Shown in pieces: positions 5,898-40,989 of a stretch of DNA of 42,389 nt; position 1 is the first letter of the stretch; each line of letters starts with the position of its first letter. The stretch is from Peribacillus kribbensis DSM 17871. GTDB taxonomy: Bacteria > Bacillota > Bacilli > Bacillales > DSM-1321. The notes beneath the pieces were generated by a model. The model had not been told where the DNA came from, ran no database searches, and saw only the letters and a list, made by a program, of their open reading frames with translations. The stretch is from NCBI RefSeq assembly GCF_000430765.1, contig NZ_AUMQ01000044.1, positions 1 to 42,389 on the forward strand. The letters run 5' to 3'. The position numbers were made by a program, and so were the translations under genes.

Positions 5898-7589
5898 ATG
5901 ACTTCATCTATTTTTAAAACATGTTATAAACAGGAAAAAGCATATTTGTTTATCGCACTAATTATTATTGCAATTTGGGTTTTGCCCTATTTTGTACTTG
6001 GACAACACGCACATATGCGCCTTCAAGATAACATGGATTCTAATATCTCATGGTACAAAGTTTTAATTGACAGCGGGCAGCTATTTGGACCCATTAATGC
6101 GATGATACCCCAGGTTATTAATGGTGAATTATCGAGAAACGCTTATTATTCCCAATACTACGGGATTGTTGAATTATTTAAATTTTTTTCTCCTGTTATT
6201 GCATACGGAATAAACCAGGCGATTAGTCGTTTTATCGCGTTTTTAGGTATGTATTTATTATTAAGAAGATATGTGATTAAAGAGGAAAATCAGGGGTTTA
6301 TCCGGGTTATCGCCGCATTAACATTTGCTTTGACACCGTTCTGGGCAAATGGAATGTTAAGTACATTAGGGATGCCGCTTGCTTTATGGGCTTTTTTAAA
6401 TATTAGAAATCACGAAAAGACATGGGTCAGTCTAGTGACTTTAACGCTTTTACCGTTTTATTCAACTTTTATGTTGGGCTTTTTCTTTTTCTTAAGTGCA
6501 ATGGGTGTATTTTGGCTTATTGATGTCATAAAAACCAAGAAAGCCCAGTTAAGACTGTTCCTCTCCATTTTGTATATGACAATCATTTATTTGGCAATTG
6601 AGTACCGTGAAGTGGCATCCTTAATTTTTACACATGAAAAGACAAATCGTTCAGAGTTTTACGAATCCAAAAACAACCTCATTCAAACCATTCAATTAAT
6701 TTTCAAAAATTATTTTATGGGACATAACCAAGATCAAACTCTTTATGAGTTTGTCATCTTCCCAACGGCTTTGATTGCTTTAATTATTGTCATCATGCAA
6801 AAAAGATGGAAACAGGAAAAGTTGTTTATTGGATTACATCTAGCTAATTTATTGTTATCTGTCTGGTATTCTTTTTGGTGGTATCAAGGCTGGGTGCCTA
6901 TAAAAGAAAAAATCAGCATTCTAAACACCTTTAATTTTTCCCGTTATCATTACTTAAGACCAATGATCATTTACATTTTGTTTGCTGTTTCTTTGCGGAT
7001 ACTATGGCAGCTCAATATAAAATGGCGGAAATTATCAGTTGTTTTTGCTATATTACAAATTGCTGTACTAGTTCCTTCTAACGAACAAATCCTTTATCAT
7101 AAATTGCCTACGTTTCAGCAATTCTATGCAGTGGATGAATTTAATAACATCAAGACATTTATCGGTAAACCAGTTCAAAAATACCGGGTTGTCAGTATCG
7201 GACTTCACCCTGCCATTGCTCAATATAATGGCTTATATACATTAGATACCTATAATAATTTTTACCCATTGTCCTATAAGCATCAATTCCGGCAAATAAT
7301 TGCACCAGAACTCGCTAAAAGCAAAACCATTAGAGATTATTTTGATCAATGGGGAGGACGCTGCTATTTATTTGTTAGTGAGCTGGGCAAAAAATATATG
7401 TTTCCAAAAGAGTCCACCAAAGTCATTCGGCATTTAAATATAAATAGTAAAGTTCTAAAACAAATGGGCGGGAATTATATCCTGTCGGCTGTCCCTATTA
7501 AAAATGCATCGGAAAATCACCTCAAGTTACAAAAGGTATTTGATTCAAAGGATGCCTACTGGCGGATTTATTTATACAAAATTACTTAA
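5898..7589 (+). CDS. DUF6044 (YkoS-like) polytopic membrane protein, orphan AT-rich copy
   Basis: This 563-residue protein has about ten hydrophobic segments and aligns along its whole length with the gene at 11997-13697 (shared ends include IAQYNG, DTYNNFY, SYKHQFR and WRIYLYK). After the first membrane segment it has HMRLQDNMDSN, an acidic loop motif shared with the paralog (DNLDSN). In GT-C glycosyltransferases such a first-loop Asp motif is catalytic, so a lipid-linked sugar transferase role is plausible but inferred. Unlike the other copy it is not next to a YkoT-type glycosyltransferase. Codon use is strongly AT-biased, unlike the second copy, which suggests separate acquisition. A terminator follows at 7679. 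Confidence 0.8.
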   Translation: MTSSIFKTCYKQEKAYLFIALIIIAIWVLPYFVLGQHAHMRLQDNMDSNISWYKVLIDSGQLFGPINAMIPQVINGELSRNAYYSQYYGIVELFKFFSPVIAYGINQAISRFIAFLGMYLLLRRYVIKEENQGFIRVIAALTFALTPFWANGMLSTLGMPLALWAFLNIRNHEKTWVSLVTLTLLPFYSTFMLGFFFFLSAMGVFWLIDVIKTKKAQLRLFLSILYMTIIYLAIEYREVASLIFTHEKTNRSEFYESKNNLIQTIQLIFKNYFMGHNQDQTLYEFVIFPTALIALIIVIMQKRWKQEKLFIGLHLANLLLSVWYSFWWYQGWVPIKEKISILNTFNFSRYHYLRPMIIYILFAVSLRILWQLNIKWRKLSVVFAILQIAVLVPSNEQILYHKLPTFQQFYAVDEFNNIKTFIGKPVQKYRVVSIGLHPAIAQYNGLYTLDTYNNFYPLSYKHQFRQIIAPELAKSKTIRDYFDQWGGRCYLFVSELGKKYMFPKESTKVIRHLNINSKVLKQMGGNYILSAVPIKNASENHLKLQKVFDSKDAYWRIYLYKIT

Positions 7590-7678
7590 CACTTCGTTTG
7601 TGTGGAGTTTTGGTATCCAGCGAATAAGCGAGGCATTCGGAAGAAAATCGAAGTAAACTGATGGATTTTAAGAAGGCT

Positions 7679-7700
7679 GGGCTGCTGAGGCAGCCCTTTT
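7679..7700 (+). terminator. terminator after the orphan DUF6044 gene
   Basis: GGGCTGC (7679-7685), loop TGAG, GCAGCCC (7690-7696), then TTTTCTT. It lies 90 bp behind the stop codon and would end the 5898-7589 transcript. Confidence 0.75.
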
Positions 7701-7701
7701 C

Positions 7702-8176
7702 TTACGATTAGGTAACGCTTTGACCAAATGTCACTGCGAGTATTCAAATAGACTTCGTATTCTATCTCACCTTTACCTCTAACTATATTGGGTCCTTCTT
7801 GGTGGGTTACACCTTCTACAGACTGAAGAGGTACAAGCAGCAAAATGGGCTTCTAAATCCTTATATTAAAAGAAATCTCGCATATTATTGCGAGTTTTTT
7901 TAATCCCCTATGTGCAACAATATTTACGAAAACAGCCTTAATAAAACAGGGATAAATGAAAAGACACTCCACAATTTGAATGTTATTTAACGAGTCATTT
8001 ATTTTGCCCCTCAAAATGGAACCCTTTATCCTTAATGCAGGCAGGCTTTTTTACTGCGCGTCTCTCTTTCGTAAAAAAATTCCCGGAAACATCTTCATTC
8101 TTCAGAATATCCTTCAATAAGAAACGTTTTATGATTTCTATGCCGGCTGCCATCCAAGATGAAAATTCTTCCATGA
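7702..8176. other. intergenic region with one further terminator and no supported gene
   Basis: Short minus-strand frames exist at 7586-7843 and 7995-8189, but neither has a ribosome binding site and the first runs through the 7679 terminator. A strong plus-strand terminator sits at 7877-7901, so something upstream may be transcribed, or the minus frame 7702-7843 may be the remains of a gene. Confidence 0.4.
7877..7901 (+). terminator. Rho-independent terminator
   Basis: CTCGCA (7877-7882), loop TATTAT, TGCGAG (7889-7894), then seven T. It has the form of a plus-strand terminator, but no clear plus-strand gene lies directly before it. Confidence 0.7.
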
Positions 8177-10951: not shown

Positions 10952-10982
10952 AAAAAGCAGATAGCTTCATACCGCTATCTGC
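10952..10982 (-). terminator. terminator overlapping the ykoT stop codon
   Basis: On the minus strand GCAGATAGC, loop GGTATGAA, GCTATCTGC, then TTTTTATG. The left arm contains the last codons and stop of ykoT, so the glycosylation operon ends exactly here. Confidence 0.85.
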
Positions 10983-11976
10983 TGTACTGGCCCTCCCTTT
11001 GGGGCAGGACCGGGAGATGGGGACTGTTCCCATAGAGTGTTTTTTCGATGGCATATTTGGGCCGGCCTTTGACTTCTTTGAATATTTTGCCGATGTATTC
11101 CCCGATGAGGCCGATTCCGATGAGCTGAAGGCCCCCGACTGTCCAGATGCTTACGATGAGGGAGGTCCAGCCAATGGCGGTGTGGTCAAGGAGTTTCATC
11201 GTAAGGGCATAGCCGCCAAATAAAAGGCTCAAAAGAAAGGAGATGAAGCCGATCAGTGTGACTAAGCGGATGGGAGCCACACTGAAGGATGTGAGACCAT
11301 CCATGGCAAAGGCAATCATCTTCTTGAACGGATATTTAGACTCCCCGGCCATCCGCTCTTTTCGATCATAATAGATCTTCTCAGAAGGGAAACCGACCAG
11401 CGGCACAAGGCCCCTTAGGAAAACATTGGATTCCTGGTATTTCAAAAGCTCTGTCAACGCCTGCTTTCCCATCAGCCGGAAGTCTGCATGATTCTGTACC
11501 AGGTTAATGCCAAGCCTTTTCATAAAGGAATAAAACCATAGCGCGGTTTTTCTTTTAAACACGGTGTCTGTATCACGGCTGTCCCGGACTCCATAGACCA
11601 CCTCATAGCCCTGCCAGTATTTTTCTATAAAGGCAGGAATAACAGAAATATCATCCTGAAGGTCAGCATCTATTGAAATGACGCAGTCCGATGTTCTGTT
11701 CGCCTCTTCAAGACCTGCCAAAAGGGCATTCTGATGTCCCACATTCCTTGAAAGCTTTAAACCCTCGACATACTTATTCCGTCCATTTTCTTCCTCGATT
11801 AATTTCCATGTATCATCCTTGCTGCCATCATCTACAAACAGCAGCCTGCTGTCATCGGAGACCAGGTTTTCAGAAATCATCTCGGTGAGCAGGGCAGACA
11901 GCTGTCTGGCTGTATCGCTGAACACTTCTTCTTCGTTATAACAAGGAACCACAATCCTTAAAACGGGTGAGTTCAT
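10975..11976 (-). CDS. ykoT: GT2 polyprenyl-phosphate glycosyltransferase (YkoT-like)
   Basis: This is a membrane-anchored family 2 glycosyltransferase of the DPM1/GtrB type, which loads a sugar from a nucleotide donor onto undecaprenyl phosphate at the inner membrane face. It shows IVVPCYNEEE near the N-terminus, FVDDGSKDDT, the metal-binding ISIDADLQDD (DxD) and two C-terminal hydrophobic segments. The start is taken at ATG 11976 (MNSPVLRIVV) because AGGAGGGA lies seven bases upstream; a longer frame to 11997 overlaps the ykoS stop. Spacing to ykoS is 20 bp. Together with GtrA and YkoS it forms a classic three-part system of lipid-sugar synthesis, flipping and transfer. Confidence 0.88.
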   Translation of the reverse strand: MNSPVLRIVVPCYNEEEVFSDTARQLSALLTEMISENLVSDDSRLLFVDDGSKDDTWKLIEEENGRNKYVEGLKLSRNVGHQNALLAGLEEANRTSDCVISIDADLQDDISVIPAFIEKYWQGYEVVYGVRDSRDTDTVFKRKTALWFYSFMKRLGINLVQNHADFRLMGKQALTELLKYQESNVFLRGLVPLVGFPSEKIYYDRKERMAGESKYPFKKMIAFAMDGLTSFSVAPIRLVTLIGFISFLLSLLFGGYALTMKLLDHTAIGWTSLIVSIWTVGGLQLIGIGLIGEYIGKIFKEVKGRPKYAIEKTLYGNSPHLPVLPQREGQYSR

Positions 11977-11996
11977 ACTATCCCTCCTAAAATACA

Positions 11997-13697
11997 TTAT
12001 TGGACCTCATATAAGTAAATTTTCCAGGCGGAATTCTTATCGTTGAAGGTCCTTAATAAGTCCAGATGGATATCCTCTGCATTCAGTATGGGAACGGAAG
12101 ATAGAAAATAGCGTCCGCCCAGCTTTTTGAATGCCTCCGTATCCAGCTGGAGATGCCGGATCTTCTTCTTTGAATCCTTTTGAAATAAATAATACTTCCC
12201 GAGCTCGCTTGAGAAAATGTAGCAGCGTCCGCCCCATTCATCAAAATAGGTCCTTAGGACATGGCTTTTTTGAAGCTCGGGTGCGATGATTTTCCTAAAT
12301 TGATGCTTATAGGATAGATCGTAAAAATTATTGTACGTATCCACTGTGTAAAAGCCATTGTACTGTGCGATGGCAGGGTGGAGTCCGATACTTGCAACTC
12401 GGTAATCCTTTTGAGGCATGCCGATATACTCTTTGATTTCCTTAAACTGCTTTTCAGCATAAAACTGCTGGAAGGAAGGATAGCCGGCAGCACGGTAATA
12501 AATTTCCGGATTGGCGCCAAACAGGACCAGAAGCTGTACCAGGAGGCAGACCTTCACAAAGATCTTCCACCTTCCGTTCCGATTCCAGAGGATGGCGGCG
12601 CCGACTGCAAACATCATATAAATGACAAGCGGCCTCAAAAAGTGGAAACGGGCAAAATTAAATGTATTCAGCAGCTGGTACCGATCTTTTAAAGGCTCCC
12701 AGCCTTTATAAAACCAAAAGGCATACCATAAAGACAGGAGGATATTAAGGGCAAACAGCCTTACAAATGTTTGATGTTCTCTCCATGCCTTTTTTTTGTA
12801 AATCATCCAGAACACAATGAATGAGAGTGGGACGATGACAAGCGTATGCAGGGTCATGACATGGGTATGGCCAAGAAAGTAATTTTTGATAAACAGCCAG
12901 ATGGTCCGTCCAAAGCTTAGCTTGGAGCTGACGAATTCATTTCTGCTAGTCGGTGCTGTAGGGAAAACCAGAGAATAAACAAGCCGGTATTCTATCAGCA
13001 GGTAAACCGCAGTCATTAAGGCGATGCTGCCGAAAAATCTAAAATTCCATTTCTTCTTGACAAGAACATCCCTTACCCACAATATCCCCATCGCAGCGAG
13101 GAAAAAGAAGAATCCAAGTACGAAGCTGGAATAGAAGGGCAGCAGCACCAATGTCAGCCAGTCCTTATATGAGGACCTGCCGCTCCGTATATTCAAGAAA
13201 GCCCATAAAGCCAAAGGATGTCCCAGGGTGCTAAGCATGCCAGACGGCCAAAAAGGAGTCAGCGCGAAGCAGAGGGATACCCCTGCTGTAATAAGGAGGT
13301 ATTCCTGTCCTTTCAGGAAATGCCTTCTTAAAAGCAGGTACATCCCCAAAAAGGCAAAGACCCTTGTAATGGCCTGGCTGATGCTGTATGCCTCCATAGA
13401 AGGAAGCAGATTATGAAGCCATTGGATTCCGCTGAATTCAGTCCCATAGGCATTGCGCGGAAGGCCGCCTATAATTTGAGGGACTACTGAATTTATTCCG
13501 CCAAATAAGAGACCGCTATGGTGAAGGACCTTATACCAGGCAATATTTGAATCCAGATTATCATGGACCCGGATATGTGAATGTTCTCCCAGGATGAACA
13601 TGGGAGATAAATAAATAACAATGATGACATAGGAAAAAAAGATATATTTGCTTTCTTTCTTCCAGTCTCTGAATCTTTTAAAACTTATACTTGGCAT
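11997..13697 (-). CDS. ykoS: DUF6044 membrane protein (YkoS-like), putative GT-C transferase
   Basis: This 566-residue protein has about ten membrane segments and a hydrophilic C-terminal domain. The acidic loop motif RVHDNLDSN after the first membrane segment resembles the GT-C active-site loop, so it may move a sugar from undecaprenyl phosphate to a wall polymer; that role is inferred. Start at ATG 13697 (MPSISFKRF) is supported by alignment with the paralog at 5898 and by the gtaB stop at 13717; a longer frame to 13745 would overlap gtaB by 29 bases. The binding site is weak (CAGG). It is followed after 20 bp by ykoT, the same partnership as in B. subtilis ykoST. Confidence 0.85.
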   Translation of the reverse strand: MPSISFKRFRDWKKESKYIFFSYVIIVIYLSPMFILGEHSHIRVHDNLDSNIAWYKVLHHSGLLFGGINSVVPQIIGGLPRNAYGTEFSGIQWLHNLLPSMEAYSISQAITRVFAFLGMYLLLRRHFLKGQEYLLITAGVSLCFALTPFWPSGMLSTLGHPLALWAFLNIRSGRSSYKDWLTLVLLPFYSSFVLGFFFFLAAMGILWVRDVLVKKKWNFRFFGSIALMTAVYLLIEYRLVYSLVFPTAPTSRNEFVSSKLSFGRTIWLFIKNYFLGHTHVMTLHTLVIVPLSFIVFWMIYKKKAWREHQTFVRLFALNILLSLWYAFWFYKGWEPLKDRYQLLNTFNFARFHFLRPLVIYMMFAVGAAILWNRNGRWKIFVKVCLLVQLLVLFGANPEIYYRAAGYPSFQQFYAEKQFKEIKEYIGMPQKDYRVASIGLHPAIAQYNGFYTVDTYNNFYDLSYKHQFRKIIAPELQKSHVLRTYFDEWGGRCYIFSSELGKYYLFQKDSKKKIRHLQLDTEAFKKLGGRYFLSSVPILNAEDIHLDLLRTFNDKNSAWKIYLYEVQ

Positions 13698-13716
13698 TCT
13701 GCGTACCTGATTGCAT

Positions 13717-14607
13717 TCAAAATTTCCTGCTGCTCTCTTCCGCAAGAAGCTTTTTCATTTCTTCGAATAAGGGTCCCCTAAGTTCCGCGTCCTTCAGGGC
13801 GAATTCTAAATTCGTCATGATAAATCCGAGCTTTTCCCCGACATCAAACCGTTTCCCTTCGAACTGATAGGCAAAAACCTGCTGCTGCAGACTCAGACTC
13901 TGGATGGCATCGGTCAGCTGAATTTCCCCGCCGATTCCTTTTTCCTGCCTTTCAAGAAAAGGGAATATATCTGGCGTCAGGATATACCGGCCCATGATGG
14001 CAAGGTCAGATGGGGCCTCTGCCGGCGAAGGCTTTTCTACTAGGTGCTCCACCTGATACAGCCTTTCGTTATGTTCACTAAAATCAATCATGCCGTATCG
14101 GTGAGATTCCGTTTTAGGAATCTGTTTCACCCCGATTACCGTGCGTTCAGTCAACTCGTATTGATTCATTAATTGCTTCGTGCAGGGAACATCGGACGTA
14201 ATGATATCATCTCCGAGCAGAACAGCAAACGGCTCATCGCCGACAAACTTTCTGGCGCACCAGATGGCATGCCCGAGCCCTTTTGGTTCCTTCTGTCTTA
14301 TATAATGTATATCCACCATATTGGAGGATTTCTGGACCATTTCCAGCACATGAAGTTTACCTCTCTTAGAGAGCGTATCTTCCAGTTCATAGGCATGATC
14401 AAAATGGTCCTCGATGGCCCTTTTTCCCTTCCCGGTCACAATGATGATATCTTCAATGCCGGAAGCAACAGCCTCTTCCACAATGTATTGAATGGTGGGC
14501 TTATCCACAATAGGCAGCATTTCCTTCGGCATGGCTTTTGTGGCGGGCAGGAATCTAGTTCCTAAGCCAGCTGCAGGAATAATGGCTTTTTTTATTTTTT
14601 TCATCAC
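13717..14607 (-). CDS. gtaB: UTP-glucose-1-phosphate uridylyltransferase
   Basis: It makes UDP-glucose from UTP and glucose-1-phosphate, the donor for teichoic acid glucosylation, glycolipid anchors and the neighbouring glycosyltransferase. The 296 residues are the normal GtaB/GalU length. The nucleotide-binding start reads [19 protein letters not shown], followed by [15 protein letters not shown]; further marks are LLGDDI and VEKP. AAGGAGG precedes ATG 14607. It sits between gtrA (11 bp gap) and ykoS (19 bp gap), so precursor supply and transfer are co-transcribed. Confidence 0.95.
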
Positions 14608-25420: not shown

Positions 25421-26248
25421 ATGAAAAAAAAAGATGTACTGCTAAATGGGAGGAAGGTCGCCTATTTAGAGGCAGGGAATGAAAATGATCCTGCAGTCTT
25501 TTTGGTTCATGGCGTGCCAGAAACAAGTCTTGTATGGAAGGAAATGATACCAGAGATTGTTTCCTGCGGGTTTAGAGCGATCGCGCCTGATCTTCCCGGA
25601 TTTGGGCAGAGTGAACCCTTTGAAGAAGCTTCCACTTGGGAACGATATACAGAGTTTATTACAGAGTTTACAGCCCATATGAATTTGGAGGATTTTCATT
25701 TAATAGTCCACGATTGGGGAGGACTAATTGGATTAAGGTGGGCGTGTGACTTTCCTGAACGCGTTCGAAGTCTGATGGTCTCGAACTCCACTATTTCTAC
25801 TGATTATGTATGGCATAAGCTGGCGCAGCTGTGGAGGACCCCCTTAACAGGGGAAAAGGTAATGAAGCAAATGGAAGACTTTATGGGTTTTCATGCAGAA
25901 ACAAAAAAATCGATACCTAATATTGATGATGAGACTCTCTTGGATTTTTACCAGGTCTTCCGTAATGAAGATACAAGCAGGGTGATATTAGAACTTTATC
26001 GTTCAATGAACAAGGAAGATGTTCAGCTTTACCAGGGAAAATTGAAAGCCATCAAATGTCCGGTAACAATCCTATGGGGGGAACTTGATCCGTACGTTCC
26101 TCTGAAATTTGCATTCAAGCTAAAAATTGAAAGTCTTCTTCATGCAGATGTGCAGGTTATCAATAATATAGGACACTTTATACAAATTGAAAATCCATAT
26201 GCTGTGAATAAACATGTTTTACTTCACCTTACCCGATTAAAGCAATGA
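25421..26248 (+). CDS. alpha/beta hydrolase with Asp nucleophile (haloalkane dehalogenase/epoxide hydrolase-like)
   Basis: This 275-residue protein has the complete triad: nucleophile D98 in IVHDWGGLIG, acid D223 in GELDPYVP and H252 in NIGHFIQIENP. An Asp nucleophile followed by Trp, with HGVPETSLVW as the oxyanion loop, is typical of haloalkane dehalogenases, fluoroacetate dehalogenases and epoxide hydrolases rather than esterases. The cap domain lies at about 125-205. The real substrate cannot be told. GAGGGGG precedes ATG 25421. It stands 140 bp before the 54-aa gene and the P450 operon on the same strand; an epoxide or hydroxyl product of that P450 would be a logical substrate, which is only inference. 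Confidence 0.88.
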   Translation: MKKKDVLLNGRKVAYLEAGNENDPAVFLVHGVPETSLVWKEMIPEIVSCGFRAIAPDLPGFGQSEPFEEASTWERYTEFITEFTAHMNLEDFHLIVHDWGGLIGLRWACDFPERVRSLMVSNSTISTDYVWHKLAQLWRTPLTGEKVMKQMEDFMGFHAETKKSIPNIDDETLLDFYQVFRNEDTSRVILELYRSMNKEDVQLYQGKLKAIKCPVTILWGELDPYVPLKFAFKLKIESLLHADVQVINNIGHFIQIENPYAVNKHVLLHLTRLKQ

Positions 26249-26387: not shown

Positions 26388-26552
26388 TTGGAAGTTGTAA
26401 ATATAAATGATTCTTTTGTGGTCAGGATTGGCGGGAAGTTCTATCTATTGATTGAGCTGAGCTTGAATCTTGGTGCAGCTAAAAAAGAGGAAGTGGTTTT
26501 TATTCCTATTTCCTACCAGGAAAAGAGGGCTCTTGCGGAATTTGGCCTTTGA
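26388..26552 (+). CDS. small hypothetical protein, 54 residues, TTG start
   Basis: A short frame starts at TTG 26388 behind GGAGGT (seven-base spacing) and ends at TGA 26550-26552. The product reads (M)EVVNINDSFVVRIGG, then KFYLLIELSLNLGAAKKEE, then VVFIPISYQEKRALAEFGL. It looks like a small beta-rich domain and is soluble. I know no family. The good start site and its position at the head of the P450-PHA cluster make it likely to be real. Confidence 0.55.
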   Translation: MEVVNINDSFVVRIGGKFYLLIELSLNLGAAKKEEVVFIPISYQEKRALAEFGL

Positions 26553-26637
26553 ATCATTTTTTCATTATAGAGTACAAGCGTTAATAAATCCTATCCATAT
26601 AGTATAGAAGACTATTATATCGGGAGGGAATGTTCGC

Positions 26638-27975
26638 TTGACTAAGAATAAAAAGGCACAAGGGCCGAAGGGGAAACTTTTCACCGGCCATACCAAGATG
26701 TTCTCGGCAGATCCGCTTGGTTTTATGGCAGGTCTGGCCGAATCTTACGGACCGGTAGCCAAATTCCGTTTTGGGCCATTTCAAAAGGTGTATCTCATTT
26801 CAGACCCTGAAATGATTAAAGAAGTATTGGTCACTAAGCAAAAGTATTTTGTTAAATCGCAGGATTTCGAATCATTAAAGCCTTTGCTGGGGGAAGGTTT
26901 GCTCACCAGCGAGAAAGAGTTTCACATGCGGCAGAGAAGATTAATACAGCCTTCTTTTAAAAAGACTGAAATCATGCAGTACGGCCAGGATATGATTGAC
27001 ATCACTAAAAGCTATGCTTCAGCCTGGAAGGAAGGAGAGGAGCGAATTATCAATCACGATATGATGGATATTACACTCGCTATTGTATCGAAAACCATGT
27101 TCAGCAAGGATTTCCAGGGTGGATACGATCATATTGGCAATTCGATTGAAACCTCAATGCGAATGGCCATTAAGAGTATGAGAGGCCTTATTAAGCCTCC
27201 GTTATGGGTCCCGACAAAAAACAACAGAAACTATAAAAAAGCGATACAGACCCTTGATGAGGTTCTTTATAGTCTGATTGGGGAACGAAGACAGGATGCG
27301 GGAAGCAGAAATGATATGCTGGGGATCTTACTGGACGCCAGATCTGAGGATGGTCTTGGTATGACAGACGAACAGGTGCGTGACGAACTGATGACGATCT
27401 TCCTTGCCGGACATGAAACGACCGCTAATGCGCTTTCCTGGACACTCTATCTGCTGTCTCGGAATCCGGAGGCAGAAGCAAAAGTGCACCGTGAGATTGA
27501 CGAAGTGATTGGCGGCAGGGACCCTAGGCCAGAGGATTTTATGAAGCTGGTATATACCCAGAATGTTGTCTGGGAATCCTTGCGATTGTTCCCGCCAGGT
27601 TTTGTGGCAGGCCGTAAGGTTGATAAAGATGTTGAAATTAATGGCTATACGTTCAAAAAAGGCGATATGGTGCTGGCAAGTCAATATGTTATGCATCGAA
27701 AAAGCGAATATTTTCCGGAACCAGAGACTTTTAGGCCTGAGAGGTTTGACAATAACTATCTAAGAACGATTCCTGCCTTTGCTTATTTCCCCTTTGGGGG
27801 CGGACCAAGGGTCTGCATAGGGAATCATTTTGCACTTATGGAAGCTGTACTTGTACTCGCCTCCATACTCCAGCATTTTAAAGTCATTCTTCCCGAAGGT
27901 CAGATCGTGAAGCCTTTTCCTTCCATTACGCTTAGGCCTAAGGGCGGCTTGAAAATGCGGATAGAAAGAAGATGA
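26638..27975 (+). CDS. cytochrome P450 monooxygenase
   Basis: This 445-residue soluble P450 has all key motifs: the I-helix AGHETT (257-262), K-helix ESLR (313-316) and the heme loop FGGGPRVCIG (386-395) with thiolate Cys 393. Sequence style (FxPERF, RxCIGNHFA) is that of the eukaryote-like bacterial P450s near the fatty-acid hydroxylases (CYP102-type heme domains and relatives), not the camphor type, so hydroxylation or epoxidation of a lipid is a reasonable inference. There is no fused reductase; ferredoxin or flavodoxin partners must come from elsewhere. TTG 26638 is the start, with GGGAGGGA eight bases upstream. The stop overlaps a possible ATG of the kinase-like gene (ATGA), so the two are coupled. 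Confidence 0.94.
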   Translation: MTKNKKAQGPKGKLFTGHTKMFSADPLGFMAGLAESYGPVAKFRFGPFQKVYLISDPEMIKEVLVTKQKYFVKSQDFESLKPLLGEGLLTSEKEFHMRQRRLIQPSFKKTEIMQYGQDMIDITKSYASAWKEGEERIINHDMMDITLAIVSKTMFSKDFQGGYDHIGNSIETSMRMAIKSMRGLIKPPLWVPTKNNRNYKKAIQTLDEVLYSLIGERRQDAGSRNDMLGILLDARSEDGLGMTDEQVRDELMTIFLAGHETTANALSWTLYLLSRNPEAEAKVHREIDEVIGGRDPRPEDFMKLVYTQNVVWESLRLFPPGFVAGRKVDKDVEINGYTFKKGDMVLASQYVMHRKSEYFPEPETFRPERFDNNYLRTIPAFAYFPFGGGPRVCIGNHFALMEAVLVLASILQHFKVILPEGQIVKPFPSITLRPKGGLKMRIERR

Positions 27976-27998
27976 TTCATAAGAAAGGAGCATTAACG

Positions 27999-28529
27999 GT
28001 GGGCAAGGACAGTATAAGCCAGAGGATCACAAAAAGCAGCTTCTTAACACATGAAGAAGTAACGTCTATTGAAACCTGGATCAAAAAGTTAAACCGCTAT
28101 TCTTTGCATACTCAGAACCAAAAAATAACTTATATCAAGAATATGTTCAGCCATTCTTACCGTATCCTTGGGCAGGGACTGAACCGCATTGTCTTCGATC
28201 TTGGAAATGGGCATGTATTAAAGATAGCATTATCAGAAGTTGGACTATTGAGCAACAAGAATGAACACTCTCTATACACTGACTGTCATCCAAGCGTTAA
28301 GAAATATCTCTGTCCTGTGAAAGAGCATGGAAATGGGTGGATTGTAATGAAGAAGATGGATGACAAACTCCCTCCAACCCTACAAAACTTTAATAAACTG
28401 ATAAACCTGCATGCAAGATTCTTTTCTCAAGGGATTTTACCCGTAGACTTGCGGCCAGTGAATACTGCGCTGGATAAAAAGGGAAAACTGAAGATTATTG
28501 ACTATGGCCTTTTTATGAAATTTGTCTAA
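27999..28529 (+). CDS. minimal protein-kinase-like protein
   Basis: This 176-residue protein (GTG start at 27999 behind AAAGGAG; an ATG at 27972 overlapping the P450 stop is an alternative giving 185 residues) has a reduced protein-kinase fold: GQGLNRIVFDLGNGHVLKIAL resembles the glycine loop and the ATP-binding lysine, LPVDLRPVNTAL the catalytic loop (D-x-R-x-x-N, like HRDLKPEN), and IIDYGLF the DFG position as DYG. The usual large C-lobe is missing, so it is far below the ~260 residues of a full Hanks kinase; small kinase-like proteins such as B. subtilis YrzF are the nearest thing I recall. It could phosphorylate a protein or a small hydroxyl compound. Confidence 0.7.
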   Translation: MGKDSISQRITKSSFLTHEEVTSIETWIKKLNRYSLHTQNQKITYIKNMFSHSYRILGQGLNRIVFDLGNGHVLKIALSEVGLLSNKNEHSLYTDCHPSVKKYLCPVKEHGNGWIVMKKMDDKLPPTLQNFNKLINLHARFFSQGILPVDLRPVNTALDKKGKLKIIDYGLFMKFV

Positions 28530-28618
28530 AGTTACACACTTGTCCGTTGCCTTTTGGATGGAAGGACATATTTTAGTAGAAAGCAATGAACGATTCTATT
28601 GAATGATAAGGAGCCCTT

Positions 28619-29383
28619 ATGGAAAATAAACTTTTTGATTTAACCAGTAAAACGGCTATTGTAACCGGCGGCGGGCGGGGGCTGGGAAAGCAGATCGCGG
28701 AAGGGCTTGCCGAGGCTGGCGCCAATATTGTGGTTTGTTCACGAAACTTAGCTGCCTGCAATGAAGTATGCACGCAATTAAAAGAACAGGGTGTTAATAT
28801 TCTGGCATTTTCCTGTGATATTACCAAAAAAGAAGAGATTCAAAATGTTATAGATGAAACCATAAAAGCCTTTGGCAAAATCGATATTCTTGTGAATAAC
28901 AGTGGGATTTCATGGATTTCTCCCGTTGTTGATTATCCGGAAGATAAGTGGAAGATGGTCATGGATGTAAATGTGAACGGCACCTTTTTATTTTCGCAGG
29001 CTGCTGTTAGGGAAATGCTCAAGCAGTCGTCGGGGAAAATTATTAATATCGCATCGATTGCCGGACATGGGGGGACACCGCCGGAGGTGATGGAAGCTTT
29101 GGCTTATAACACTAGCAAAGGTGCCGTTATTACATTCACTAAGGATCTTGCCCTTAAATTGGCTAAGTATGGCATTCAAGTGAACGCCATTGCCCCTGGT
29201 TTTTTTCCGACCAAGATAACGAGTAAAGTATTGCAGAGTTCATTTTTGAAGGGCGTGCCTGCAGGGCGCTTTGGGGGGGACTCAGACCTTAAAGGAGCTG
29301 CGGTCTTTTTAGCCTCAAATGCGTCCGATTATATGACGGGGCAGATTCTAAATATAGATGGGGGCATAACTGCTCAGGCGTAA
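28619..29383 (+). CDS. short-chain dehydrogenase/reductase (SDR)
   Basis: This 254-residue classical SDR has the cofactor loop TGGGRGLG (16-23), NNSG (93-96) and the active-site Ser146, Tyr163 and Lys167 (YNTSK). Acidic discrimination is absent after strand 2 (VVCSRNL), where the Arg favours NADPH. In PHA loci an SDR of this kind (PhaB) reduces 3-oxoacyl-CoA to (R)-3-hydroxyacyl-CoA for the synthase; here it is followed after 24 bp by PhaR-like and PhaC-like genes, so that role is inferred from context. AAGGAG precedes ATG 28619. Confidence 0.88.
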   Translation: MENKLFDLTSKTAIVTGGGRGLGKQIAEGLAEAGANIVVCSRNLAACNEVCTQLKEQGVNILAFSCDITKKEEIQNVIDETIKAFGKIDILVNNSGISWISPVVDYPEDKWKMVMDVNVNGTFLFSQAAVREMLKQSSGKIINIASIAGHGGTPPEVMEALAYNTSKGAVITFTKDLALKLAKYGIQVNAIAPGFFPTKITSKVLQSSFLKGVPAGRFGGDSDLKGAAVFLASNASDYMTGQILNIDGGITAQA

Positions 29384-29407
29384 AATGAACAGGAAAGGAG
29401 AGTACTT

Positions 29408-29839
29408 ATGGGGAAAAAGAAATCAGAAGATGAATTGTTGAAGGTGCTTAAAAAAAAGGGAACCAAATTAGAGGCAGAGTTAAATGAGAAAATTCAAAAA
29501 TGGCTAAATAGCCGAGAATTAATTGAAAAGGCAAGCCTAGAATCGAATGCTGCAGCGAAAGAAGCAAAAAAACTGCAGGAATTAATGGAAATGATGTCTG
29601 TCATCGGAAATATCCCGACAAAAAGGGATGTCGCAAATGTCGCTCGAATGCAGGTTCAGATGGAGGAGAAAATCGACCATCTAGAAGAAATTCTTTTAGA
29701 GATGAAAAAAAACATCAGGAAAAAGAAGAAAAAAAAGTCCATTACAGATATAAAAATGGATAAAGAAAAAAGGATTGATGACCTTATTAAGGCTATAACG
29801 GCATCCAGTCCATTTAAATCAGGGACGGAATTACCATGA
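29408..29839 (+). CDS. PhaR/PhaE-like accessory subunit of polyhydroxyalkanoate synthase
   Basis: This 143-residue coiled-coil protein is very rich in Lys and Glu. The key segment IPTKRDVANVARMQVQMEEK then IDHLEEIL corresponds to the conserved C-terminal box of PhaE/PhaR subunits, and it lies directly before a PhaC gene whose start overlaps its stop by four bases. It is shorter than typical PhaR (about 200 aa) and PhaE (over 300 aa) and ends with a very basic stretch (KKNIRKKKKKK). In class III/IV synthases this subunit binds PhaC and is needed for activity. AAAGGAGAG precedes ATG 29408. Confidence 0.72.
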   Translation: MGKKKSEDELLKVLKKKGTKLEAELNEKIQKWLNSRELIEKASLESNAAAKEAKKLQELMEMMSVIGNIPTKRDVANVARMQVQMEEKIDHLEEILLEMKKNIRKKKKKKSITDIKMDKEKRIDDLIKAITASSPFKSGTELP

Positions 29840-30855
29840 AGAAAAAGAAACGGAAACCGTCAAAATGGAAATTGGCAGCTGAAGCTCTAAGCGGACCTGC
29901 TCCCGACATGGGAGTAACTCCAAGGGAAGAAGTATGGAAGAAGAATAAAGCTACCTTATGGTACTATCGGCCGGCTGAAAAGAAATACAAGGTTCCAGTT
30001 TTTCTTGTATTCTCCCTTATAAACCAGCCCGTAATCCTTGATTTAGGACCAGGAATGAGTCTGATCGAAAGCCTGACAAATGGCGGCTGGGAAGTATATT
30101 TACTGGACTTTGGAGTCCCGGGCTATGAGGACGGACATATAAATGTAGATGATTTGGTTGTAGATTATTTGCAAAAAGGAGTTCAAAGGGCACTCAGGCA
30201 TTCTGGAGCAAAGGAAATCACCCTTTACGGCTTCTGTCTTGGCGGGACACTTACTGCGATGTATGCCGCCATTGCGGAGGAGCCAATTAAAAATATCATA
30301 CTATCCACTACTCCAATCGATTTCTCACATTCCGAATTTGATCAGTGGGAACAATCCTTTAAGGAAGGTAAAGCAAATTTTGATGATGTTCTGGATGTCT
30401 TGCAGGTTCTTCCTGGGTTTGCTGTCCAATTTGGAATCCGTCTAATTACCTCACCAATCTATTACTCTCCGTATCTTTCCCTTTTAAATAAAGCAGATAA
30501 TCCAGCTTATGTTCAGAAATGGCTGAGGTTCAACGAATGGGTGAACAGCACACTTCCTGTTCCCGGCGCGGTGATGAAGCAGTTAATGAATGATATTGGA
30601 AAAGAGAATAAGCTTGTCAATGGCACTCTCATGATAAGAGAAAAAAGGGCAGATCTAAAGAATATTACCGCCAATCTGCTTGGCGTCGCAGGTAAGGATG
30701 ATAAGCTGGTACCGGATTCAATGAGCAGCAAAATAACCGAACTTGTATCAAGCGGGGATAAAACCTTTAGATTCCTGGATAACGGACATTCGGCTATGAT
30801 ATCAAACGGTGAACTACCAGACTTTTTGGCAGAATGGCTCCCTTCAAGGTCATGA
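29836..30855 (+). CDS. PhaC-like polyhydroxyalkanoate synthase (class III/IV type)
   Basis: This 339-residue alpha/beta-fold polymerase joins hydroxyacyl-CoA units. The lipase-like box is YGFCLGGT with nucleophile Cys134; the acid is Asp289 in GKDDKLVP and the general base His318 in DNGHSAM. LINQPVILDLGPGMSLIESL and VYLLDFGVPGYED are also characteristic of the family. It is somewhat shorter than Bacillus class IV PhaC (about 360 aa), with a shortened basic N-terminus (MKKKKRKPSKWK). The gene overlaps the PhaR-like gene by four bases, so translation is coupled and a two-subunit enzyme is expected. Whether it makes PHB or another polyester or oligomer is unknown. Confidence 0.85.
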   Translation: MKKKKRKPSKWKLAAEALSGPAPDMGVTPREEVWKKNKATLWYYRPAEKKYKVPVFLVFSLINQPVILDLGPGMSLIESLTNGGWEVYLLDFGVPGYEDGHINVDDLVVDYLQKGVQRALRHSGAKEITLYGFCLGGTLTAMYAAIAEEPIKNIILSTTPIDFSHSEFDQWEQSFKEGKANFDDVLDVLQVLPGFAVQFGIRLITSPIYYSPYLSLLNKADNPAYVQKWLRFNEWVNSTLPVPGAVMKQLMNDIGKENKLVNGTLMIREKRADLKNITANLLGVAGKDDKLVPDSMSSKITELVSSGDKTFRFLDNGHSAMISNGELPDFLAEWLPSRS

Positions 30856-30897
30856 CCGTAAACCATGAGGTCTATATCAGGAAAGGAGGGATGGAGA

Positions 30898-31029
30898 ATG
30901 TACATGCTATTTCCAAGCGGGGATGCTCCCCTTGAGCCTGTCCATGAATACCTTGGATTTGGTGCTTATGTTTTCTCTGGATTTTTTAAAGATCTGCAAG
31001 AAGAGCATGGACAGGGTGATGAAGACTAG
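30898..31029 (+). CDS. small hypothetical protein, 43 residues
   Basis: ATG 30898 follows AAAGGAGGG (about seven bases), 42 bp behind the PhaC-like gene. The product begins MYMLFPSGDAPLEPVHEYLG and ends in an acidic tail (EEHGQGDED). Its central part is aromatic (FGAYVFSGFF). No family is known to me. The strong ribosome binding site and its place in the operon support it. Confidence 0.6.
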   Translation: MYMLFPSGDAPLEPVHEYLGFGAYVFSGFFKDLQEEHGQGDED

Positions 31030-31064
31030 AGCTTTCAGCTTTCTATATTTAAGGAGGTGATCTA

Positions 31065-31247
31065 ATGAAGAACAGAAGAAGCCGGCTTAAAAAAGCTATT
31101 GAAAAAACGGTTGATTTTCAAAGAGATTCCCTTAGAGCCCAAAGAGAATTCCTTCGTCAATCACTTGCAAGCCAAAGAGAGTTTATTCGACAGTCGATAG
31201 AAGATCAAAAAGCTTTCCTGGACGATTTAAGATGCTTAAGAAGATAG
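31065..31247 (+). CDS. small helical protein made of 11-residue repeats, last gene of the PHA-like operon
   Basis: This 60-residue protein has a perfect ribosome binding site (AAGGAGGTGATC) before ATG 31065. From about residue 22 it consists of 11-residue repeats: SLRAQREFLRQ, SLASQREFIRQ, SIEDQKAFLDD, with a weaker preceding copy (VDFQRD). Each repeat has Leu/Ile and Phe on one face and Arg/Gln/Glu on the other, the pattern of surface-binding amphipathic helices or hendecad coiled coils. Its place at the end of a PhaR/PhaC operon makes a granule-coating (phasin-like) role attractive, but there is no homology evidence. A terminator follows. Confidence 0.75.
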   Translation: MKNRRSRLKKAIEKTVDFQRDSLRAQREFLRQSLASQREFIRQSIEDQKAFLDDLRCLRR

Positions 31248-31261
31248 ATGATTTTCAACCT

Positions 31262-31297
31262 AAAAAACGGCGTTTCTTGAGAAACCGCCGTTTTTAC
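31262..31297. terminator. bidirectional terminator ending the PHA-like operon
   Basis: AAAAAACGGCGTTTC and GAAACCGCCGTTTTT form a stem with a short TTGA loop and A/T runs on both sides. It closes the plus-strand operon and the convergent GGDEF gene. Confidence 0.88.
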
Positions 31298-37856: not shown

Positions 37857-38735
37857 TTACTCTTTCAGAAGTTTTAACAATTCACAGGCAGCCTTTGAGA
37901 GATATCGATCCTTAAACCATATCACTGCCGGCTTTGCCGTCATAAAGGGCTCTTCTATTTCTAAGACTTTGAATTTTCCATCATAGGCCTGGTGGATTTC
38001 AGACTTAGGAATAATCGTCATGCCCATTTCCGTAGCAACAAGGGTCAGAATAGTGGAAATATCAGGTCCGTCCATCACCACTCTGGGAGTTAAGTTGTGA
38101 TCCTTAAAAGTCTGCAGGATATCCTCGTAAACTCCATGCCCGGAAATTCTCTTGGTCAACAAAAGGTCCTGCCTGGCTACTTCGCTCAAAGAAATGCAGT
38201 TCTCAGGAAAACGCGATTCCCATTTCCTCGGGATGACCGCTACGAAAGGATCTTCATTAAGGGAAATCATTTCATAGTTATCTCCTTCTATAGGAAGCAG
38301 CAGCAAGGCCATATCTATTTTATTCTGCTGCAGCAATGCCTCCAGATAATGTGTATCGCCATTCAGGATTTTCACATAAACCTTCGGGTACATTCGATGG
38401 AAGTTAGTCAAATGTTCAGCTAGATGAGATACACAAATCGTGGAGGTCCCGATGCAGACCGTTCCGCTGATTCCTTCTTTAATCTCGGATATCTCTTTTT
38501 TTATGGAATCCACATCTTGCAGCATCGTTTTAGCGCGTGAATAAAGGGCTTTTCCCGCTTCGGTTATCTGCCACTGCTTTCCCTCCCGTACAATCAGGGT
38601 CACCCCAAGTTCCTCCTCCAGCTGACGAAGCTGCAGACTTAATGCTGGCTGGGCAATATGAAGGTGCCTCGCTGCCTTCGTAATCTGTTTTTCTTCAATT
38701 ATTGTAATGTAATAGCGTAATTGGCGGATATCCAT
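37857..38735 (-). CDS. bsdA: LysR-family regulator of the phenolic acid decarboxylase operon
   Basis: This 292-residue LTTR has an N-terminal winged helix (TKAARHLHIAQPALSLQLRQ, residues 19-38, is the recognition part) and a two-subdomain effector domain (from about 90, GTVCIGTSTICVSHL). It is divergent from bsdB with 253 bp between, the same arrangement as bsdA in B. subtilis, where it activates bsdBCD on salicylate or hydroxybenzoates. That makes the assignment by context strong. The binding site before ATG 38735 is AAGGAGAATACG. Confidence 0.88.
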   Translation of the reverse strand: MDIRQLRYYITIIEEKQITKAARHLHIAQPALSLQLRQLEEELGVTLIVREGKQWQITEAGKALYSRAKTMLQDVDSIKKEISEIKEGISGTVCIGTSTICVSHLAEHLTNFHRMYPKVYVKILNGDTHYLEALLQQNKIDMALLLLPIEGDNYEMISLNEDPFVAVIPRKWESRFPENCISLSEVARQDLLLTKRISGHGVYEDILQTFKDHNLTPRVVMDGPDISTILTLVATEMGMTIIPKSEIHQAYDGKFKVLEIEEPFMTAKPAVIWFKDRYLSKAACELLKLLKE

Positions 38736-38893
38736 CGTATTCTCCTTAAAAAACTGGTGTGCTTATTATATAAAAGCCTGGCAGGAAGGGAAAGCGAAGG
38801 GCTTATAAAAATAGAATGGAAAGTTAACCCAGGCATAAACAGCCGGCAGAAATGCCTTGGATGTATATTGCATAAGAAAAATATATGTAAAGC

Positions 38894-38935
38894 ATAAAAT
38901 ATATATATTTTATTGATTGAATAACGAAGTGTATA
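38894..38935 (+). promoter_or_regulatory. bsd control region: 20-bp palindrome and -10-like site
   Basis: A perfect 20-bp AT palindrome (ATAAAATATA-TATATTTTAT, 38894-38913) and a -10-like TATACT (about 38930-38935) lie before bsdB. LysR proteins bind AT-rich dyads (T-N11-A), so this is a candidate BsdA site; an AT palindrome can also arise by chance. Confidence 0.45.
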
Positions 38936-38988
38936 CTGACACTGCAAGGCACTAGATAAGCAGTAAGAGTCAGGAAAGGCGGGGGCAG

Positions 38989-39570
38989 ATGAAACTTATT
39001 GTTGGGATTACCGGAGCTACCGGTGTTATTTTTGGCATCCGCATCCTTCAGCTTTTGAAAGAAACAGATGTTGAAACCCACCTGGTCATGTCGTCATGGG
39101 CGACAGCCAATATTCCTTTTGAAACAGGTTTTACCGTCAAAGAGGTAGAGGAAATGGCCGATTTTGTTTATTCCTATAAAGACCAGGCGGCAAAAATTTC
39201 GAGCGGTTCTTTCCGGGTTGATGGAATGATTGTGGCGCCGTGCAGCATGAAGTCGCTTGCTTCCATACGGATGGGGATGGCTGATAACCTGCTTACAAGA
39301 GCGGCTGATGTCATGCTCAAGGAAAGAAAAAAACTTTTATTGATGACAAGGGAAACGCCTTTAAATTCCATTCATCTTCAGAATATGCTGGAGCTTTCAC
39401 GAATGGGGACCATCATATTCCCGCCGATGCCAGCCTTCTATAATCATCCTGAAGGATTGGATGATATGGTAGATCACATCGCAGTCCGGGCACTGGATCA
39501 GTTTGACATCCAGTTGACGAAGGCGAAGCGCTGGGAAGGCATGAAATCTAAAAAACAGGAGGAAAATTAA
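38989..39570 (+). CDS. bsdB: UbiX-type flavin prenyltransferase of phenolic acid decarboxylase (subunit B)
   Basis: UbiX-like proteins make prenylated FMN, the cofactor of UbiD-type decarboxylases. The 193-residue product starts MKLIVGITGATGVIFGIRIL (FMN loop GATG) and has VMSSWA, MIVAPCSMKSLASI and LLMTRETPLNSIH, all standard. GCGGGGG precedes ATG 38989. The next gene begins at the base after its stop, with the binding site AGGAGGAAAATTA inside its 3' end, so the two are tightly coupled. Confidence 0.93.
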   Translation: MKLIVGITGATGVIFGIRILQLLKETDVETHLVMSSWATANIPFETGFTVKEVEEMADFVYSYKDQAAKISSGSFRVDGMIVAPCSMKSLASIRMGMADNLLTRAADVMLKERKKLLLMTRETPLNSIHLQNMLELSRMGTIIFPPMPAFYNHPEGLDDMVDHIAVRALDQFDIQLTKAKRWEGMKSKKQEEN

Positions 39571-40989
39571 ATGGCATATAAAGATTTTCGAGAATTTTTA
39601 ACAAAACTCGAACAAGAAGGACAGCTTCTAAACATACATGATGAAGTAAAACCTGAGCCGGATATTGCAGCGGCAACCAATGCAATGAGCAAGCTTGGCC
39701 AGGAGACACCTGCCATGCTGTTTGATAACATTTATGGATACACAAATGCACGTGTGGCCATGAACGTCATGGGCTCATGGCCTAACCATGCCCTTATGAT
39801 GGGAATGCCGAAAAATACACCGCTTAAAGATCAATTTTTTGAATTCGCAGACCGTTACAGCAAGTTCCCTATGCCTGTACAGCGCGAAGAAAAAGCCCCT
39901 TTTCATGAAGTGGAAATAACAGAAGATATTAACCTATTTGATATCCTGCCGTTATTCCGTTTGAATCAAGGTGACGGAGGCTTTTATATTGATAAGGCAT
40001 GTGTCATTTCCCGCGATCTGGATGATCCTGAACATTTTGGCAAGCAAAATGTGGGGATTTATCGTATGCAGGTCAAAGGTAAAGATCGTCTGGGAATCCA
40101 GCCTGTTCCACAGCATGATATCGCCATCCACTTAAGGCAGGCTGAGGAGCGCGGTGAAAACCTCCCGGTGGTTATTGCTCTGGGGAATGAACCAGCTATT
40201 ACAACGGCTGCTGCTACCCCGCTTTTATATGATCAATCTGAATATGAAATGGCAGGTGCGATCCAGGGTGAGCCATACCGAATCGTAAAAGCCAAGGACT
40301 CCAGCCTTGATATTCCATGGGGAGCCGAAGTGGTGCTTGAAGGGGAACTTCTTGCTGGTGTTAGGGAATTCGAAGGACCTTTCGGGGAGTTTACTGGCCA
40401 TTATTCTGGCGGACGCAGTATGCCTATAATTAAGATCAATAGAGTATACCACCGGGCTAACCCAATATTTGAGCATTTGTATATCGGTATGCCATGGACT
40501 GAAACAGATTATATGATCGGTGTTAATACAAGTGTTCCGCTTTATCAGCAGCTGAAGGAAGCCTATCCAAATGAAATCGTGGCTGTAAATGCTATGTATA
40601 CACATGGACTTGTCGCCATTGTTTCTACTAAGCGCCGTTATGGTGGTTTTGCAAAAGCAGTCGGCATGCGTGCAATGACTACTCCGCATGGTCTAGGGTA
40701 TTGTAAATTGGTCATTGTCGTCGATGAGGACGTGGATCCATTCAATCTGCCGCAGGTCATGTGGGCATTGTCAACCAAGATGCACCCTAAGCACGATGCC
40801 GTCATCATTCCAGATTTGTCTGTTTTGCCGCTTGATCCTGGTTCATCTCCAGCAGGAATTTCCCACAAGATGATTTTGGATGCTACTACGCCGCTGGCAC
40901 CTGAAACAAGAGGCCATTATTCACAGCCGCTGGATTCACCTCTTGATGTAGATAAATGGGAAAAACGCCTAAGGGAATTAATGCAGTAA
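39571..40989 (+). CDS. bsdC: UbiD-type phenolic acid decarboxylase, catalytic subunit C
   Basis: This 472-residue UbiD-family enzyme uses prenylated FMN to decarboxylate 4-hydroxybenzoate, vanillate and related acids (reversibly). Family marks: MNVMGSWPNHALMMGMP, the EFTGHYSGGRSMPIIKINRV segment and FGGFAKAVGMR-like YGGFAKAVGM; the IDKACVISRD and PFGEF regions provide conserved acidic and Arg residues. Length and order are those of B. subtilis BsdC. It follows bsdB without a gap and precedes bsdD by 46 bp. Confidence 0.93.
   Translation: MAYKDFREFLTKLEQEGQLLNIHDEVKPEPDIAAATNAMSKLGQETPAMLFDNIYGYTNARVAMNVMGSWPNHALMMGMPKNTPLKDQFFEFADRYSKFPMPVQREEKAPFHEVEITEDINLFDILPLFRLNQGDGGFYIDKACVISRDLDDPEHFGKQNVGIYRMQVKGKDRLGIQPVPQHDIAIHLRQAEERGENLPVVIALGNEPAITTAAATPLLYDQSEYEMAGAIQGEPYRIVKAKDSSLDIPWGAEVVLEGELLAGVREFEGPFGEFTGHYSGGRSMPIIKINRVYHRANPIFEHLYIGMPWTETDYMIGVNTSVPLYQQLKEAYPNEIVAVNAMYTHGLVAIVSTKRRYGGFAKAVGMRAMTTPHGLGYCKLVIVVDEDVDPFNLPQVMWALSTKMHPKHDAVIIPDLSVLPLDPGSSPAGISHKMILDATTPLAPETRGHYSQPLDSPLDVDKWEKRLRELMQ

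Follow-up and report, generated by a model that had tools for sequence, protein, structure and literature searches.

What does a polyhydroxyalkanoate (PHA) synthase-like gene pair do in the same operon as a cytochrome P450? The question is raised by a 42,389-nucleotide stretch of Peribacillus kribbensis DSM 17871 (contig NZ_AUMQ01000044.1 of assembly GCF_000430765.1; contig C25 of this 5.05 Mb genome), hereafter the window. As a first-pass annotation had reported, genes for a P450, a kinase-like protein, a short-chain dehydrogenase/reductase (SDR), a PhaR-like subunit, a PhaC-like synthase and two small proteins follow one another there on one strand. We found that the synthase pair belongs to a branch of its own and that the P450 recurs beside it in other genera. 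The reading that we tentatively favor, at somewhat less than an even chance, is that a divergent PhaR-PhaC receives oxidised acyl monomers from the P450 and the SDR, all being made during sporulation; here we infer the transcription, substrate, order of reactions, product and location. The features concerned are the following.

25421-26248, plus strand: alpha/beta hydrolase with an HDWGG motif, haloalkane-dehalogenase/epoxide-hydrolase type
26572-26604, plus strand: promoter-like element GTACAAGC-N16-CATATAGTA, with 33 bp between its end and the P450 start
26638-27975, plus strand: cytochrome P450, 445 amino acids (aa), TTG start (PF00067, 315 bits)
27999-28529, plus strand: mini kinase-like protein, 176 aa, GTG start, with conserved Lys, Glu, Asp-Asn and DYG
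28619-29383, plus strand: SDR oxidoreductase, NF006070 match, non-PhaB
29408-29839, plus strand: PhaR-like subunit of 143 aa, matching TIGR02132 weakly
29836-30855, plus strand: PhaC-like synthase, 339 aa, Cys134-Asp289-His318, separate clade
30898-31029, plus strand: conserved acidic 43-aa protein (MYMLF...), of a family found 3′ of PhaC or P450 in relatives
31065-31247, plus strand: basic repeat protein, 60 aa, relatives not found in 37 loci
31263-31295, plus strand: intrinsic terminator hairpin (z = −5.3)

The genes from the P450 to the 60-aa protein appear to be one operon, and a single transcript is consistent with the one promoter-like element and the one terminator.

Is the synthase pair that of an ordinary PHA locus? 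Throughout, we used a sample of 150 relatives and a sample of 299 Bacillales genomes (the order sample). The best PhaC model for the window's protein was TIGR01836 (class III/IV), which it matched at 244.5 bits against a cut-off of 365.3, and it also fell below the cut-offs of TIGR01838 (102 of 623 bits) and TIGR01839 (37 of 855); among order-sample rows, the 46 that pass TIGR01836 have scores of 438-534. The PhaR-like partner matched TIGR02132 weakly (25.4 bits over 54 residues; cut-off 148.4), its sole match when NCBIfam was searched at E up to 0.1; no PhaE match was found there. We built a maximum-likelihood tree from 97 PhaC sequences, retained from 112 after those of 270 aa or fewer and exact duplicates had been dropped; it split 57 window-kind rows from 37 canonical class IV rows and from three rows of class III (Haloferax, Sinorhizobium and Novosphingobium) with support of 100/100. 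This is the separate clade that the first-pass annotation had suspected; the tree was midpoint-rooted and no sister relations are claimed from it. The triad Cys134-Asp289-His318 is intact, as had been read from the sequence, and in the 57-row clade the Cys and the His are present in every row and the Asp in 56 (Glu in L056). An earlier impression that the synthase is shorter than class IV enzymes was borne out weakly, with 339 aa against medians of 345 for the new clade and 347 for the canonical sequences of the tree.

Gene order sets the locus apart as well. We compared 78 loci, 77 fetched plus the window, in which two places had been fetched twice (L044/L060 and L049/L072); a PhaR-cluster gene is present in 70 of them. 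Among the 25 loci whose PhaC falls short of 43% identity to that of the window, 18 have the canonical PhaR-SDR-PhaC order, 17 a PhaP-like cluster and 17 a PhaQ-like cluster (cluster names assigned by eye). At the 53 loci with at least 43% identity, the PhaP-like cluster (c6) is absent from all and a PhaQ-like member occurs in 5; in loci of the window kind PhaR stands directly 5′ of PhaC, and an SDR, P450, kinase or other genes stand in front. The phaP-phaQ / phaR-phaB-phaC order, described in the available part of PMC13398554 and seen in relatives, was not found in the window. Both comparisons therefore agree with the earlier claim that this is not the ordinary PHA locus. Like the class IV locus of Bacillus and Priestia, with its small PhaR-like subunit, Cys-type PhaC of ∼340-360 aa with Cys-Asp-His and nearby SDR, the window holds these elements; unlike it, the window has a PhaC in a separate clade and below the curated cut-offs, lacks both a nearby PhaP/PhaQ-like gene and a PhaB interposed between PhaR and PhaC, and adds the P450, the mini-kinase and the 43-aa protein, with an SDR of another family in front. 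Class III (PhaC-PhaE) shares TIGR01836 as the best model, whereas the window's PhaC lies under the 365-bit cut-off, has a weak PhaR rather than a PhaE as its partner and is separated by the same fully supported split.

The same scores can be read in another way, in which the PhaC-like protein is an acyltransferase, or an esterifying or cyclising enzyme, that acts on a small oxidised lipid in a secondary-metabolite or signal pathway and makes no polymer. That it lies below every PHA-synthase cut-off tested fits this reading, as does the general knowledge that P450s, SDRs and alpha/beta hydrolases are common tailoring enzymes. We nevertheless consider it distinctly unlikely, given the PhaR-cluster gene in most of the loci and the nucleophile Cys kept throughout the clade.

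A PhaC-like match was found in 66 of the 150 relatives. A match below the TIGR01836 cut-off (hereafter sub-cut-off PhaC) was found in 51 of the 299 order-sample genomes, which points to a second PhaR-PhaC branch that is common in Bacillales; three of these genes (in G144, G202 and G227) look broken, and those fetched form one clade. Neither a natural P450-PhaC operon nor this conserved PhaR-PhaC branch was found described in the available parts of the literature matches listed. These include an engineered cholesterol-cleaving system with PHB granules (PMC4517628, in part) and a tentative ‘class V’ PhaC in Janthinobacterium (PMC8312272, in part); our clade was compared with classes III and IV only. 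Within the clade, the Neobacillus-type PhaC of nine loci (L047, L049-L055 and L071) stands beside genes resembling those for an acyl-CoA synthetase, MFS transporters, a sigma-54 activator and peptidases (names by eye), which would make these loci another pathway built on a synthase of this type. At L075 (G046), PhaR-PhaC lies between two very large open reading frames (ORFs), one on each strand, of 1837 and 1832 aa.

Does the P450 belong with the synthase? Linkage of the two, whose absence elsewhere would have told against the first-pass annotation, is kept in other genera. In the gene-order comparison the P450 adjoins PhaC in the window and 14 other genomes, as P450-kinase-PhaR-PhaC in P. deserti and three more (G001, G020 and G029), P450-PhaR-PhaC in G012 and G083, P450-SDR-PhaR-PhaC with the kinase behind in Neobacillus kokaensis and Neobacillus mesonae, PhaR-PhaC-P450 in G047, G070, G092 and G112, and a divergent P450 beside PhaC in G129 and G067, the last with distant forms of both proteins and one stop in the PhaC match. 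Coordinates add adjacent pairs in six more genomes (G156, G157, G171, G184, G208 and G247). At least seven GTDB families (f1, f3, f6, f26, f29, f35 and f42) plus Neobacillus have adjacent pairs, in three orientations.

Co-occurrence points the same way. In the order sample, 18 of 19 genomes with a P450 at 56% identity or more, a cut set after the hit list was known, also have a sub-cut-off PhaC, compared with 51 of 299 overall; the exception, G241, is the one genome with a close P450 in which PhaC is absent, and the two genes are adjacent in 14 of the 18. Counted by genus, the figures are 9 of 10 P450 genera and 21 of 117 overall. Fisher tests on hand-typed genome sets gave p-values of 1.4e-14 by genome and 3.2e-7 by genus, which ignore kinship and are too small because the sampled genomes are related. 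Among the 150 relatives, every genome with a P450 at 57% or more (32 of 32, by eye) has a PhaC of the window kind. Over both samples, genomes outside the window's family have the two adjacent in 12 of 14 cases (by eye). On a Niallia taxi megaplasmid with a P450 at 63%, PhaC was not found in the fetched 13 kb.

Two sets of remnants were also observed. Locus L193 (G039) holds a P450 fragment, a kinase gene and PhaC fragments together at ∼6468-7840, which suggests decay of an ancestral P450-kinase-PhaC operon. G041, counted among the 32 genomes above, has a broken P450 and a broken PhaC in separate places.

When would the operon be expressed? The element at 26572, the only GKACARNC-N15-19-CATA element in the window, looks like a promoter of mother-cell type, with a −10 region of the sigma-E/sigma-K kind and a SpoIIID-like site over the −35 region. 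Upstream sequences were taken from 32 P450 genes, of which 31 are distinct (L044/L060 being doubled), 19 from the Peribacillus/Neobacillus group and 12 others; 11 loci in that group, the only such loci fetched, have an unlinked P450. The pattern CAARC-N15/16-CATANNNTR, often GTACAAGC, stands 58-71 bp 5′ of the P450 start in 18 of the 19 group sequences (a variant in L062 was scored as a miss) and in none of the 12 others, and shuffled sequences gave 0.1 of 32. Across 46 genomes, GTACAAGC-N15/16-CATANNNTR had 41 matches and its reversal 7. It had 37 (5 reversed) in 28 genomes of the window's family; of these 37, 12 precede unlinked kinase genes, 6 precede P450s, 10 precede an M15 peptidase (7 seen directly at loci that were fetched, the other 3 identified through nearly identical sites) and 9 lie elsewhere. 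Because 12 of the 14 unlinked kinase genes in these genomes (counted by eye) carry the element, as P450s do, the kinase and the P450 have a common element even where they are unlinked.

The sigK gene offers a comparison. Of 19 relatives in which sigK is matched in full, 16 have GKACARNC-N19-CATA 5′ of the gene, once as exact GTACAAGC, and the window's element shares with this sigma-E/SpoIIID promoter both the CATANNNTR −10 and the GKACARNC upstream site. GKACARNC-N19-CATA is present in 0 of 42 upstream regions of dpaA and yabG, which we take to be sigma-K genes, in 21 genomes; a relaxed sigma-K pattern fits 37 of these 42 regions and CACC-N16-CATANNNTR fits 27, so that the −10 is again the one seen in the window. 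A sigK match at E 1e-90 was not found in 6 of 25 genomes, the window's own included, possibly owing to interruption by an insertion like the one in sigK of B. subtilis. The gene cypA encodes a P450. According to the available part of Eichenberger et al. 2004 (PMC517825), cypA belongs to the sigma-E regulon, sigma-E and sigma-K promoters have a common −10, and SpoIIID turns on spoIVCB, the 5′ part of sigK. Strict expressions for nine sigma factors showed no enrichment upstream of P450 and SDR genes, with 2 of 52 sequences matched. The promoter suggests mother-cell expression, and if it is of this type the operon product would be made during sporulation.

The element was also seen before genes of other kinds. 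It is shared by an M15 peptidase with peptidoglycan-binding domains in seven Peribacillus loci (L319, L322, L327, L329, L330, L332 and L333), and it precedes a GT2 gene on contig C7 of the window's genome and a gene for a BhlA-like protein in G002.

What chemistry could the enzymes perform? The P450 has an intact heme-Cys loop, I-helix and ExxR motifs, as do all 32 P450 rows. The window's genome has a second P450 at 80% identity, with a P450 fragment and then an SDR (67%) behind it. The window's SDR passes NF006070 (PRK08213 subfamily) at 346.7 bits against a cut-off of 279; the model's name, gluconate 5-dehydrogenase, is used here as a family label and not as a function. In sequence the SDR is not a PhaB: its identity is 54-67% to 19 other SDRs at the head of window-kind phaRC operons and 33-40% to 17 canonical PhaB proteins. 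The hydrolase that had been noted just upstream is there, at 25421-26248, with its HDWGG motif; since it lies 5′ of the promoter-like element it is a separate unit. A gene of this haloalkane-dehalogenase/epoxide-hydrolase type precedes the P450 in the window, in P. deserti and in five more genomes (G001, G011, G018, G034 and G040). Haloalkane dehalogenase was rejected as a specific name for it (115 bits, cut-off 265) and the wider type was kept.

The kinase-like protein was described at first as stripped down, and its fold bears this out, ending shortly after DYG. K75, E89, D150, N155 and D168-G170 are invariant in 26 rows of the family; the window's protein stops 6 residues past DYG and its relatives ∼15 residues past, so that the C-lobe with the activation segment is incomplete. 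Its Pfam Pkinase score (17.3 bits) is below the cut-off of 31.7. An AF2 model (pLDDT 86.4) matched ROCK1, WbdD, PknB and RIO2 in Foldseek at E of ∼5e-6 to 1.5e-5, and TM-scores by query length were mostly 0.45-0.55, the matches being protein kinases plus WbdD and RIO2. Its target may be either a protein or a metabolite. The family occurs in 33 of the 150 relatives, 32 of these within the window's family.

Taken at the level of family chemistry, the most likely course of events would begin with the P450 oxidising the acyl chain of a cellular lipid, after which the SDR and the epoxide-hydrolase-like enzyme, which is probably involved, would adjust the oxygen function to give oxidised or hydroxylated acyl monomers. 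PhaR-PhaC would then join the coenzyme A (CoA) thioesters of these monomers, through its Cys, into a polyester or oligoester. If a promoter of mother-cell type drives the operon, the product would form inside the mother cell or on the surface of the spore. The mini-kinase may act as a regulator of the synthase or alter a substrate, and the small proteins could act at the polymer surface. CoA activation and the supply of electrons must come from elsewhere in the cell. If this is correct, the locus points to new polyester monomers and perhaps to spores that contain a layer or reserve of lipid polymer, with a subset of the second PhaR-PhaC branch tied to a P450 and, as the promoter would suggest, linked to sporulation. 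We know of no P450-type monomer-oxidising activity in PHA loci.

A bolder version is unlikely in our estimation. In plants, cutin and sporopollenin are made with P450 fatty-acid hydroxylases, reductases and polyester formation, so that acyl chains are oxidised before the polyester is built. By analogy, with no homology claimed, the mother-cell P450, SDR and epoxide-hydrolase-like enzyme would oxidise lipid chains, the divergent PhaR-PhaC would polymerise them into a cutin- or sporopollenin-like polyester under the control of the mini-kinase of the same regulon, and the product would coat or provision the spore.

Several results weigh against the supply of oxidised monomers to PhaR-PhaC during sporulation. 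Within the window's family, only 6 of the 26 genomes with both P450 and PhaC keep them adjacent (by eye), and for this reason the coupling is conserved but not obligate. In the order sample, 33 of the 51 genomes with a non-canonical PhaC are without a close P450, and relaxing the P450 threshold to E up to 1e-120 gave 32 genomes, of which 20 (by eye) have a non-canonical PhaC, 6 a canonical PhaC only and 6 none. As to timing, the CAARC/CATANNNTR motif was found by eye and counted on the same sequences, which is circular; the genome-wide and sigK counts are more independent. Its upstream half is an exact GKACARNC in 11 of the 19 group P450s, the window included, and GTCCAARC in the other 8, and its spacing is 15-16 compared with 19 upstream of sigK. 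The −35 region in the window is unlike the sigma-K CACC that the relatives have upstream of dpaA and yabG, although the −10 and its spacing match. SDR- or PhaR-led operons in the window's family carry another block, GCAC-N18-TATAMTATA (for example L063, L066 and L039), and the PhaRC-P450 operons of families f6 and f29 appear sigma-A-like by eye. Finally, neither a redox partner nor a CoA ligase was found among the operon genes. The first-pass interpretation of a new polyester system thus holds as to the non-standard locus, the linkage and the separate clade, and is weakened by the low adjacency within the window's own family; the pathway that it proposed, from oxidation through phosphorylation and reduction to polymerisation, is still a hypothesis.

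A rival explanation is divergent yet ordinary PHA storage, in which PhaRC polymerises 3-hydroxyacyl-CoA into short-chain PHA with the SDR as the reductase that supplies the monomer, while the P450 has a separate role in lipid turnover or detoxification and shares the stationary-phase or sporulation timing. We regard this as possible, if doubtful. The window's PhaC is the one PhaC-like protein found in its genome, a second not being detected there; the SDR stands directly 5′ of PhaRC in many loci with no P450 nearby; and, as noted, most genomes with a non-canonical PhaC have no close P450, while the two genes lie apart in 20 of the 26 genomes of the window's family. Against it, a close P450 is rarely found without such a PhaC, the two are adjacent in three arrangements and in 12 of 14 cases outside the window's family, and the identity of the SDR to canonical PhaB is low. 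The further alternative that the neighbors are functionally unrelated and are clustered incidentally under a shared sporulation-phase promoter would account for components found apart in most members of the window's family and for the weaker nesting at the looser P450 cut; we consider it very unlikely in view of adjacency that recurs across families and orientations.

The 4-bp overlap of the PhaR and PhaC genes was seen again, at 29836-29839. Two starts given by the first-pass annotation were revised. The kinase-like gene, placed at ATG 27972, more likely begins at GTG 27999, which is preceded by AAAGGAG and from about which the orthologues align, and the first small gene, called as 54 aa from 30865, more likely begins at ATG 30898 after AAAGGAGGG and encodes 43 aa. 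Another 54-aa ORF, with a TTG start, had been listed just upstream and is present at 26388-26552. It was rejected as an operon member and probably lies outside, because it stops 5′ of the window's one promoter-like element; tblastn against 37 loci at E up to 0.01 gave no match, a weak test for a query so short.

The 43-aa protein belongs to an acidic MYxLY family of 43-57 aa that lies 3′ of PhaC in the window, P. deserti and G001 (and, by weak tblastn matches, in G010 and G032) and 3′ of P450 or P450-SDR in G010, G013, G014 and G018. For the 60-aa protein at 31065 there was no tblastn match in 37 loci and no Pfam match; judged by eye, this basic repeat protein is perhaps phasin-like.

Elsewhere in the window, a GT2 gene and a gene for a YfhO-like membrane protein (name by eye) lie at 10975-13745 and 5898-7589, and orthologues of the GT2 and YfhO-like proteins (63% and 57-58%) lie near an unlinked P450 in Peribacillus loci L181, L185 and L186, perhaps as a wider GT2/YfhO-like/P450 neighborhood. 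A glycosidase-like gene (family 1, by eye) at 583-2020 is split into ORFs at 583-1119 and 1121-2020. At 37857-40989 there is a UbiX/UbiD-like decarboxylase pair, with the gene for a LysR-type regulator (by eye) adjoining on the other strand.

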